DNA of 36,320 nt from a virus. The stretch covers positions 1 to 36,320 of IMG/VR virus record IMGVR_UViG_3300020401_000041; one strand, written 5' to 3'. How positions within the stretch are numbered: position 1 is the first letter of the stretch; every line of letters starts with the position of its first letter. A program made the position numbers and the translations under genes. The notes under the pieces were generated by a model, which saw nothing but the letters and a program-made list of their open reading frames with translations, was not told where the DNA came from and did not search any database. This document shows, one piece after another, positions 1-1,574 of this stretch.

Positions 1-294
1 AAAGACTTTGTGCTTTACTTTGAAGACTACCAGCAAGCGGTTGATGAGTACGACAAAGAGATAGTAGACTCATTTTTGGAGGAGTTTGACTTTAGCGACG
101 TTTCAAGGATTAGCGACGCATACCACGGATCATGGAGAAACGGAGCAGAATTTGCGGAGCAGTTAGTAAGCGATTGTGGATATATCCACGGGGACTTGCC
201 TTATTGGATAGAGGTAGACTGGGAGAAAACATGGGACAATTTGAGTTATGATTACACGGAGATTAACGGATATATTTTCAGTAACAATTTTTAA
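1..294 (+). CDS. ArdA-like antirestriction protein, 3' part (5' end outside window)
   Basis: The reading frame is open from base 1 and ends at TAA 292-294, so the start lies upstream of the window. A GTG at base 10 is in frame but the codons before it are also coding, so it is probably internal. The visible 97 residues are strongly acidic. The C-terminal part, LPYWIEVDWEKTWDNL followed by DYTEINGYIF, has the layout of the ArdA C-terminal domain (leucine-proline, an acidic I-D-[YW]-E core, then D-Y and G-Y-[IV]-F). ArdA proteins mimic the bend and charge of B-form DNA and block type I restriction enzymes. In a phage this would protect incoming DNA. Only the last domain is visible, so the family call rests on pattern recall rather than an alignment. 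A strong hairpin follows directly. Confidence 0.6.
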   Translation, partial: KDFVLYFEDYQQAVDEYDKEIVDSFLEEFDFSDVSRISDAYHGSWRNGAEFAEQLVSDCGYIHGDLPYWIEVDWEKTWDNLSYDYTEINGYIFSNNF

Positions 295-298
295 CACA

Positions 299-325
299 AA
301 AGGGGTTGCCAAGTGTAACCCCTTT
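299..325 (+). terminator. Hairpin after the ArdA-like gene (terminator-like)
   Basis: A perfect 9-bp inverted repeat: AAAGGGGTT at 299-307 pairs with AACCCCTTT at 317-325, with a 9-base loop. It begins five bases after the stop codon of the ArdA-like gene. The descending T-run is only three bases, so termination may be incomplete. The -35 element of a promoter for the next gene lies inside it. Confidence 0.55.
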
Positions 326-334
326 CGCTATACT
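306..334 (+). promoter_or_regulatory. Sigma-70-like promoter overlapping the hairpin
   Basis: TTGCCA at 306-311, a 17-base spacer, then TATACT at 329-334. The -35 box covers the end of the left hairpin arm and part of the loop, and the spacer contains the right arm. The predicted transcription start is near 341, leaving a leader of about 19 bases before ATG 360. Base match and exact 17-base spacing support the call. No experimental start is known. Confidence 0.55.
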
Positions 335-359
335 AATATTAGTTAAAGGATTTTCCCCT

Positions 360-617
360 ATGAACAACTTAACACAAACATTAATCAACAGAATTAACCA
401 GAAAGAATCTTTTAAAGATATTGCTTATCTTTGCGAAGACTTCCAAACTTTCTGCGATGAAATCAACGAATGGGGTGTAGACCACATTGGAGGGGTTGAC
501 CTTTACGGATGCGGATTTCTTCCTAACCCAGAATTAGACCTTGAAGCATTAGATGGTTTCTTTGCTTCCTTCGGTTGCACCCCTTCCAACCCACACCCCG
601 CAGGTCATTACGCTTAA
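360..617 (+). CDS. Small acidic protein of unknown function (85 aa)
   Basis: I do not recognise this protein. It starts MNNLTQTLINRINQ, a likely amphipathic helix, followed by an acidic stretch with LCEDFQTFCDEINEWG, a glycine-rich DHIGGVDLYGCGF segment and a proline/histidine-rich tail. I chose ATG 360 over an in-frame upstream start at 306 because 306 lies inside the preceding hairpin and upstream of the predicted transcription start. AAAGGA at 345-350 is a plausible ribosome binding site nine bases before ATG 360. The gene stands alone between two hairpins, so it appears to be its own transcription unit. Three cysteines in a short protein could bind metal, but no standard motif is seen. 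Confidence 0.65.
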   Translation: MNNLTQTLINRINQKESFKDIAYLCEDFQTFCDEINEWGVDHIGGVDLYGCGFLPNPELDLEALDGFFASFGCTPSNPHPAGHYA

Positions 618-633
618 GGATATCTTAAGATTT

Positions 634-656
634 GGGAGGGTCAAACCTCCCTTTTT
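634..656 (+). terminator. Rho-independent terminator
   Basis: GGGAGG at 634-639 pairs with CCTCCC at 646-651 around a six-base loop, and is followed directly by five T (652-656). This is the most classical terminator of the four hairpins in the accessory segment, and it lies 17 bases after the stop codon of the 85-aa gene. Confidence 0.75.
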
Positions 657-658
657 CA

Positions 659-667
659 TGTTATAAT
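659..667 (+). promoter_or_regulatory. Extended -10 promoter
   Basis: TGTTATAAT at 659-667 is a consensus extended -10 element (TG, one base, TATAAT). There is no good -35 at 16-18 bases upstream, where the terminator hairpin sits. The predicted start is near 674, giving a leader of roughly 48 bases for the gene at 722. Confidence 0.5.
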
Positions 668-721
668 TTAATCATACAGGGAAACGCACTTTGACTTTTC
701 CCAAACGTTTCAAAACTTTAA

Positions 722-1288
722 ATGAACTACCTACCAACAAAACTTGAAGAATACACAAAAGATTTTTCAAATGAGTTACCGATTGAATCATTCCTACAGT
801 ATGGATTCTATAAGATTGCAGACGTATCTTTAAAACCTGAAGAGAGATTTATCAAAAATCCAGAAGTCAATCCTATCCAGTACAATGTTGTTAAGGGGTT
901 GGAAGATAAGTACAACTCATACAGAGAGTTAATATATGCAATCGTCATTGACGGAAGAATTGTTAAAATCGGTGGAACATATGTAGGAATGAAGGGTAGA
1001 CACAGTTCTTACAACTGCGGAACACGCAAAGCACGTAAAAAGGGAACATGCTCTGTTACCAATTTCAACATCACAGAAACACAATACAACGCAATCTTAG
1101 AAGGTAAAAAGGTTGAGTGGTTTGTCTTTGATGTACCCCTTGCAGAACAGACAATTAACCTTCCGTGGGGTGATGAGATTAAATACAACGCAAAGACATT
1201 TTATAAGTATGAATCTTCACTTTGCGACAAATACCAACAGTTAACAGGACACTTTCCCCCCCTTAGTGATAACGCAGGGGTTGAGTAA
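722..1288 (+). CDS. GIY-YIG-like nuclease (188 aa)
   Basis: Residues 72-97 read like the core of a GIY-YIG or T5orf172-type nuclease: a strand YAIVIDG, then IVKIGGT (82-86 being KIGGT), then R93 and Y97 at the place of the catalytic arginine region. The C-terminal part has FYKYESS with E164, the expected place of the metal-binding glutamate, and ends PPLSDNAGVE with N184. Several cysteines and basic residues follow the core (CGTRKARKKGTC), which could contact DNA. GIY-YIG domains cut DNA in restriction enzymes, homing enzymes and phage nucleases. The canonical GIY and YIG triplets are not literal here, so the family call is moderate. There is no clear Shine-Dalgarno at ATG 722. It has its own promoter and downstream hairpin. 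Confidence 0.45.
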   Translation: MNYLPTKLEEYTKDFSNELPIESFLQYGFYKIADVSLKPEERFIKNPEVNPIQYNVVKGLEDKYNSYRELIYAIVIDGRIVKIGGTYVGMKGRHSSYNCGTRKARKKGTCSVTNFNITETQYNAILEGKKVEWFVFDVPLAEQTINLPWGDEIKYNAKTFYKYESSLCDKYQQLTGHFPPLSDNAGVE

Positions 1289-1289
1289 C

Positions 1290-1301
1290 ACTTTATAAAG
1301 T
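1290..1301. repeat. 12-bp perfect palindrome
   Basis: ACTTTATAAAGT starts two bases after the stop codon of the nuclease-like gene. It is perfectly self-complementary, which is what an operator for a dimeric protein would look like, but a chance AT-rich palindrome is equally possible. Confidence 0.3.
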
Positions 1302-1313
1302 CTTAATATTTGG

Positions 1314-1336
1314 GGGGTTGCGTGATTCGTAACCCC
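1314..1336 (+). terminator. Hairpin after the nuclease-like gene (terminator-like)
   Basis: GGGGTTGCG at 1314-1322 pairs with CGTAACCCC at 1328-1336, nine pairs including one G-T, with a five-base loop TGATT. It shares GGGGTTGC and AACCCC with the hairpin at 299-325. No T-run follows, because a promoter -10 box begins five bases later, so its strength as a terminator is uncertain. Confidence 0.45.
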
Positions 1337-1346
1337 AGACTATAAT
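1318..1346 (+). promoter_or_regulatory. Sigma-70-like promoter embedded in the hairpin
   Basis: TTGCGT at 1318-1323, a 17-base spacer, then a perfect TATAAT at 1341-1346. As in the copy at 306-334, the -35 box starts with the last two T of the GGGGTT arm, and the spacer contains the AACCCC arm. The predicted start is near 1353, giving a leader of about 18 bases before ATG 1371. Confidence 0.6.
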
Positions 1347-1370: not shown

Positions 1371-1574
1371 ATGAATAACACATTTACAACTACTGCTTAT
1401 AACACACTTGGCGAAGCACAGGAAACAGAAACACACACAGACAGTTGGCAAGCAACTGAAATCTGTTTAGACCTTTCCATGCTTTACGGATACGCTGAAA
1501 CCTTAGACGCATGGGGTCGCCATGCAGGTGAGTATGGAGACAGACCTGCAGCACTTGGGCAGAGGGCATACTAA
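1371..1574 (+). CDS. Small protein of unknown function (67 aa)
   Basis: I do not recognise the family. The protein starts MNNTFTTTAYNTLGEAQETE and is Thr-rich at the N terminus. It then has an amphipathic segment (ATEICLDLSMLYGYAETLDAWG) and ends with HAGEYGDRPAALGQRAY. It begins with the same three residues (MNN) as the 85-aa protein at 360, and both start codons are preceded by TTTCCCC plus one or two T. There is no Shine-Dalgarno in the expected place: the leader is AATTAATTTCCCCTT. It is flanked by hairpins and seems to be its own transcription unit. Confidence 0.6.
   Translation: MNNTFTTTAYNTLGEAQETETHTDSWQATEICLDLSMLYGYAETLDAWGRHAGEYGDRPAALGQRAY

Follow-up and report, generated by a model that had tools for sequence, protein, structure and literature searches.

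Gene organization and intergenic elements of the window

The DNA analyzed in this study (the window, meaning herein the whole stretch of 36,320 bases) is an IMG/VR record representing a fragment of a T4-like cyanophage, of which the conserved part shows about 70% DNA identity to P-SSM2 and to the baseplate regions of other cyanophages. The carrier is a T4-type myovirus, the window encoding the baseplate genes gp25, gp6 and gp7-like and its DNA matching P-SSM2 and other T4-like cyanophages. The first 2.1 kb of the window is filled with small variable genes, and upstream of the gp25 baseplate block the small genes differ among P-SSM2, S-SKS1 and S-SRM01, indicating a plastic region. On the plus strand, we identified the 3′ part of an anti-restriction (ArdA-like) gene (1..294; phrog_36653 anti-restriction protein, E=1.5e-24, with a Pfam ArdA match, E=0.006, below the cut-off), cassette gene A of 85 aa with unknown function (360..617; phrog_9580), the endonuclease-like cassette gene B (722..1288; phrog_1111), and cassette gene C of 67 aa (1371..1574). 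A MazE-like gene is located at 1780-1968. For genes B and C no tblastn match was found among the named phages, while homologues were obtained from IMG/VR. Rfam covariance models gave nothing above the gathering score on positions 1-2400, where the only two matches (E 2.7 and 3.4) were at chance level. On the 3′ side of gene C lies a very strong hairpin, CGGGGGGTCGCCCCCCG (1604-1625), followed by T3 and with no -10 nearby.

Element 1, located after the ArdA-like gene, consists of the hairpin AAAGGGGTTGC-CAAGT-GTAACCCCTTT (299..325, plus strand; 11 bp including one G-U), its left arm and loop holding the -35 box TTGCCA (306..311; 5/6), and of the -10 box TATACT (329..334; 5/6) after a spacer of 17 nt. 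Element 2, located in front of gene C on the same strand, consists of the hairpin GGGGTTGCG-TGATT-CGTAACCCC (1314..1336; 9 bp including one G-U) with the -35 box TTGCGT (1318..1323; 3/6 only) in its left arm, and of the perfect -10 box TATAAT (1341..1346), again after 17 nt. The RNA folds were calculated to be -16.5 kcal/mol (z = -3.5) for element 1 and -18.0 kcal/mol (z = -2.8) for element 2. Both elements match base for base the design that had been noticed in the sequence-only reading at 299-334 and 1314-1346, that is, GGGGTTGC..GTAACCCC arms, a -35 box in the left arm, a 17-nt spacer, and TATACT or TATAAT. The third gap (634-667) likewise carries what had been described there, a hairpin (element 3; 634..651, plus strand; -13.2 kcal/mol, z = -2.0) followed by T5 (652-656), together a predicted intrinsic terminator, and then an extended -10, TGTTATAAT (659..667). 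Homologous hairpins are present in L468 and L470, in which TATAAT is kept, and L466 carries TACAAT.

The label of terminator, given by the same reading to all three hairpins, is a good fit for element 3 and a moderate one for element 1, in which the TTT is shared with the stem and the U-tract is partial. The label fits poorly for element 2, because the stem is followed by AGACTATA and the U-tract is absent. Both hairpins with a built-in -35 box are putative terminators and both promoters putative active promoters, the case for termination being weakest in the element at 1314. Cassette B is flanked by an imperfect direct repeat of 30 nt (73%; left copy 610..639, right copy 1288..1317, plus strand), which on both sides extends from the stop-codon region into the hairpin.

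Geometry of the hairpin and promoter across phage genomes

For measurement against chance, the design was scored as TTG-N20-TATAMT with a hairpin covering the -35 box, using simple promoter and hairpin rules. The window carries two design sites (306 and 1318). Dinucleotide shuffling of its full length, repeated 1000 times, gave an average of 0.002 and not once two sites; with bases 1-2200 alone, no design site was obtained in 4000 shuffles. When nine cyanophages were pooled with the window, hairpin-covered TTG..TATAMT pairs numbered 22 for the 17-nt spacer, 6 for 16 nt and 2 for 18 nt, with 0-1 at each of the remaining spacings from 11 to 25, whereas the control with a scrambled -10 gave 0-2 per spacing. 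In the same collection, TTG..TATAMT pairs amount to 266 at spacer 17 versus about 80 elsewhere, an excess indicating the presence of real promoters among them, and hairpins cover 8% of the pairs at spacer 17 (22/266) against about 0.7% at most other spacings.

The position of the hairpin relative to the -35 box is also sharply peaked. In P-SSM2, S-SKS1, S-SRM01 and KVP40 the hairpin begins most often 10 to 5 nt ahead of the -35 start. The peak of RB49 lies 5-6 nt behind the -35 start, its hairpin thus being the spacer itself. Annotations of the named phages were read for part of the sites; all those checked in P-SSM2 (four) and S-SRM01 (six) are located between annotated genes and on the gene strand. 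One site of S-SKS1 (35925) falls within an annotated gene. The hairpin with a built-in -35 box and a fixed 17-nt spacer is far beyond chance; it is found repeatedly in cyanophages as well as in other phages, where it occupies the short gaps that separate small genes.

Survey of IMG/VR for the composite element

In agreement with the expectation of the sequence-only reading that relatives should carry the element, it recurs not only in the nine cyanophages pooled with the window but also in at least 120 stretches of IMG/VR, identified with the pattern GGGGTTGN{4,12}AACCCCN{3,12}TATAMT, for which a total length of 26-43 nt was allowed. Among the matches listed, 82 of the 117 distinct elements have exactly the 17-nt spacing. 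Within this listed group of 82, TTGACA is found in 63 even though only TTG was specified in the pattern, ATG follows within 60 nt in 77, and the right arm is followed by three or more consecutive T in only 23. In L121 and L106, the right arm slides within a contig (loop of about 3-11 nt) with the -10 box fixed, supporting the view that hairpin and promoter are separate constraints. L106, L121, L019, L004 and L008 carry 3-5 copies each of the -35-in-hairpin element. The best matches of L106 and L121, over short stretches, are phages of Enterococcus, Staphylococcus and Lactococcus; the design therefore extends probably beyond T4-like phages of Gram-negative hosts, and these matches suggest convergent use in phages of Gram-positive hosts.

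The genes behind the IMG/VR elements include those for DNA polymerase (L011, L075 and L091, in which the identity was given by phrog_262), single-strand binding protein, CobS-like and high-light-inducible proteins. The arrangement GGGGTTGACA..AACCCC..TATAAT precedes DNA polymerase genes (putative in L029, L118 and L021) at distances ranging from a few bases to about 30 nt in L011, L029, L075, L091, L118 and L021, and since the element precedes such genes in several phages, core replication genes also appear to use the composite. A composite element lies directly before hli genes in S-PM2 (hli03 by annotation; site at 124,309, element at 124,304-124,337), L016 (phrog_178) and L038 (putative hli), so that a photosynthesis-related gene would be insulated likewise. 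A sigma-54 reading of the TGGCAC..TTGC found upstream of some IMG/VR elements was rejected, because the distance is 8 instead of 5 nt and because marine cyanobacteria are not known to have sigma-54.

Turnover of hairpins and presence or absence of a cassette at homologous junctions

Homologous junctions were selected from IMG/VR by the flanking proteins A, B and C, regardless of hairpins. At the junction of element 1, the same hairpin is present in L496, and other hairpins with TTGC at the matching place are present in L493, L495, L497 and L498; in L493, L495 and L498 the stem is long (about 16 bp), the loop contains TTGCAT and a TACAAT follows after 17 nt, and L497 reads GGGGGTTGCATAATTGCACCCCC. 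Upstream of the gene C homologues, we identified at least five different hairpins, each adjoining a -10: the window type, that is, element 2 (in L497/L503, which are one contig); a TTTCAGT..ACTGAAA stem (in L500, L501, L502, L510 and others); a CCCCATTC..GAGTGGGG stem immediately next to the -10 (in L504, L506 and L507); and the GGGGG-TAGACA and GGGGTTT..TTGACA types (in L508, L509, L511 and L512). L508 and L509 have both flanks in common but differ in the hairpin. The 5′ leader AAGTATATAAATTAA..CCCC ahead of gene C (1347-1370 in the window) is conserved among the homologues, while the adjoining upstream hairpin changes completely. The -10 and the leader move together with gene C, unlike the hairpin.

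The TTTCAGT family, which is without a -35-like hexamer and is a hairpin family of the gene C junction distinct from element 2, was analyzed for covariation. Paired cells amount to 96.7% with five double-changed cells, a level reached in 0 of 500 shuffles, and slid structures give 28-50% pairing. This is good evidence for the stem but not evidence from independent events, because in the alignment the gap of L498 was placed by structure (with N in the loop) and the rows are related.

In L497 the end of the ArdA-like gene is followed by element 1, gene A, element 2, gene C, a strong hairpin and then the downstream genes of the window. This contig is thus colinear with the window except for gene B and element 3, which are missing, with both neighbours and element 2 kept; the hairpin behind its gene C resembles that at 1604-1625 of the window. 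The suggestion that such elements let single-gene cassettes be swapped is supported by gene B, which the window has and L497 lacks precisely between two elements. Direction and homologous recombination aside, the arrangement fits the gain or loss of gene B between elements. The two window elements are only 46% identical to each other over 41 nt and are therefore probably poor substrates for homologous recombination; the 30-nt flanking repeat would be a better recombination repeat than the elements themselves.

A candidate promoter class with an upstream dyad

The survey also yielded a candidate class of cyanophage promoters with an upstream operator, possibly newer than the composite element. 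A dyad, TGMCAGTT-N4-AA[C/G]TG[G/T]CACA (TGMCAGTT-N4-AACTGGCA), is present in P-SSM2 (e.g. 67182), S-SKS1, S-SRM01, S-PM2 (e.g. 8589), S-8S56, Syn9, Bellamy and L264-L382; its core is followed by TATAAT after 36-39 nt, and a -35 box is mostly absent. Using a weight matrix at 12 bits or more, we found 83 dyad sites whose core is followed at 34-41 nt, most often at 37-38 nt, by a -10-like hexamer; the same matrix gave no dyad sites at the 34-41 nt distance in RB49 and KVP40. Scanning of IMG/VR with AACTGGCACA-N12..42-TATAATA gave, among the matches listed, 138 distinct elements, 113 of them at 36-38 nt; of these listed 113, ATG is found within 35 nt in 105, a significant hairpin lies in between in half, and a -35 of at least 5/6 is present in 10. 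Of 84,980 cellular species genomes, a single MAG contig matched a stricter pattern of dyad plus TATAAT, against at least 23 dyad hits in the viral set. The sole cellular match, L514 (DULF01000196.1), is a 13-kb contig of a Clostridiaceae MAG, and is possibly due to chance or a misbinned phage contig. A peak of the CTGKCAC core at 29 nt was discarded as it looks coding (no ATG behind, core mostly GTAAC). The window elements carry no operator, element 1 having only TTAACAC at 38 nt. In L469 a homologue of gene B is flanked on both sides by operator-type elements, and gene B of the window by the -35 and the extended -10 types.

The dyad sites look like an apparently undescribed class of cyanophage promoters with a putative activator site. 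We propose, tentatively and at somewhat less than even probability, that T4-like cyanophages have a composite class of their own, in which the dyad operator 36-39 nt before TATAAT, usually without a -35 box, is combined in about half of the cases with a terminator hairpin in between; an activator encoded by the phage or the host would take over from the -35 contact, so that the terminator could be accommodated within the promoter, and the window elements would be the activator-free version. If true, the dyad class might represent the third (middle-like) class of transcription that is missing in cyanophages.

Proposed mechanism and alternative explanations

Elements 1 and 2 are, with high probability, composite terminator-promoter elements that work like the PeSLs described below. 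The RNA of the upstream gene would fold into the hairpin and the transcript would end there or just after, while the same bases would serve the sigma-70 RNA polymerase of the host as a promoter. In this promoter, the inner left arm or the loop would supply the -35 box, the 17-nt spacer would enclose the right arm (plus any U-tract), and the -10 box would follow immediately. Each small gene would thereby be an insulated transcription unit within one 35-45 bp gap, and the acquisition or loss of a gene between two elements would leave the neighbouring genes undisturbed. This proposal builds on what was directly observed, namely the geometry, the fixed spacing, the base compensation at one junction, the turnover of hairpins and one clean presence or absence of a cassette; from these we infer that the promoters are active, that transcription terminates at the hairpins, and that insertion or deletion proceeds by recombination between elements. 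Extrusion of the DNA, considered in the sequence-only reading as one way for the two roles to compete, is improbable as cruciforms with arms of 8-11 bp.

An inverted repeat over the -35 box could also be an operator for a dimeric repressor or activator instead of an RNA hairpin, since a dyad at this place is in the classical repressor position and the GGGGTT..AACCCC arms are recurrent within and between phages. The arm spacing, however, varies within one contig while the promoter spacing stays constant, the stems are wholly different among elements of one genome and among homologues of the same gene, and the stems of the gene C junction carry compensatory changes. The operator reading of GGGGTT..AACCCC, rejected on the variable arm spacing and the hairpin turnover, is mostly refuted and very improbable. 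Still less is to be said for a chance superposition, in which terminator and promoter overlap, with no fixed design, simply because a compact genome leaves only short gaps for them: most sites are indeed in gaps of often only 20-120 bp, but crowding predicts no preferred phase, in contrast to the sharply peaked offset between hairpin and -35 box, and dinucleotide shuffles yield almost no sites, leaving this explanation with a nearly negligible probability.

The promoter part could be real and the hairpins without a U-tract could instead stabilise mRNA 3′ ends, mark sites of processing or cause pausing. In agreement with such roles, no more than two T immediately follow the right arm in element 2 and in about 70% of the listed 17-nt IMG/VR elements; elements 1 and 3, on the other hand, do have T on the 3′ side of the stem, and the repeats of RB49 are also without a U-tract (CCCCTATAAT), yet their PeSL stem-loops were reportedly described as effective terminators by Arbiol in 2010. 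We consider a non-terminator role unlikely, though by no means negligible.

With the sequence rule, a hairpin with the -35 box inside and the -10 box exactly 17 nt on, gene boundaries and putative early promoters of uncultured phages can be located from DNA alone. PeSL-type elements are extended to cyanophages, in which they were judged sparse in a study of S-PM2 in 2015 (PMC4503421). Given the fast turnover of hairpins at conserved junctions with the dual design kept, the cost of combining two signals becomes measurable.

Comparison with known systems

Composite promoter-terminator elements, although overlooked in the sequence-only reading, are already known in T4-type phages. PeSLs (promoter-early stem-loops) were reportedly described for RB49/phi1 by Arbiol et al. 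in 2010, and composite promoter-terminator repeats are said to have been described for KVP40/nt-1 by Comeau et al. in 2014. The window elements resemble the PeSLs of RB49/phi1 in that a compact sigma-70-like promoter and a stem-loop are combined between small genes in plastic regions of T4-type phages. They differ in that the hairpin of RB49 fills exactly the 17-nt spacer, TTGACA-[AGGGGATCnnnGATCCCCT]-TATAAT, whereas in the window the left arm covers the -35 box, and in that the 12 copies of RB49 have similar stems (median 68% identity) whereas the window stems are diverse. The repeats of KVP40, AAAGGGTTGACnnnnGTCAGCCCTTT-n4-TATTAT, share with the window a -35 box in the left arm, beginning 6-7 nt from the hairpin start, but have a spacer scored as 18 nt, near-identical stems (median 76%) and a weaker -10, while the cyanophage copies are diverse (median 37-46%). 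Each moron-type cassette of lambdoid phages consists of a single gene equipped with a promoter and a terminator of its own, and is gained or lost as a unit. Morons use two separate signals; in the window one element serves two neighbouring genes.

In three reports (PMC4503421, PMC5931544, PMC3950731), PeSLs are presented as composite promoter-terminator elements of T4-type phages and linked to gene shuffling. The haloarchaeal virus HGTV-1 carries a repeated inverted-repeat/TATA motif before most genes of one genome arm, which was likened to PeSLs (PMC3950731); this motif is an archaeal promoter, unlike that of the window, and the likeness is one of description. PeSL-like elements of S-PM2 were considered too sparse to explain its gene island (PMC4503421), and we found therein one -35-in-hairpin element (before hli03) plus over a dozen operator-type sites. 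Both window elements combine a stem-loop and a sigma-70-type promoter in one compact intergenic element, as is characteristic of PeSLs. Because PeSLs are known in T4-type phages and the KVP40 copies share the geometry, the elements are best described as a cyanophage variant of the known PeSL and not as a new kind.
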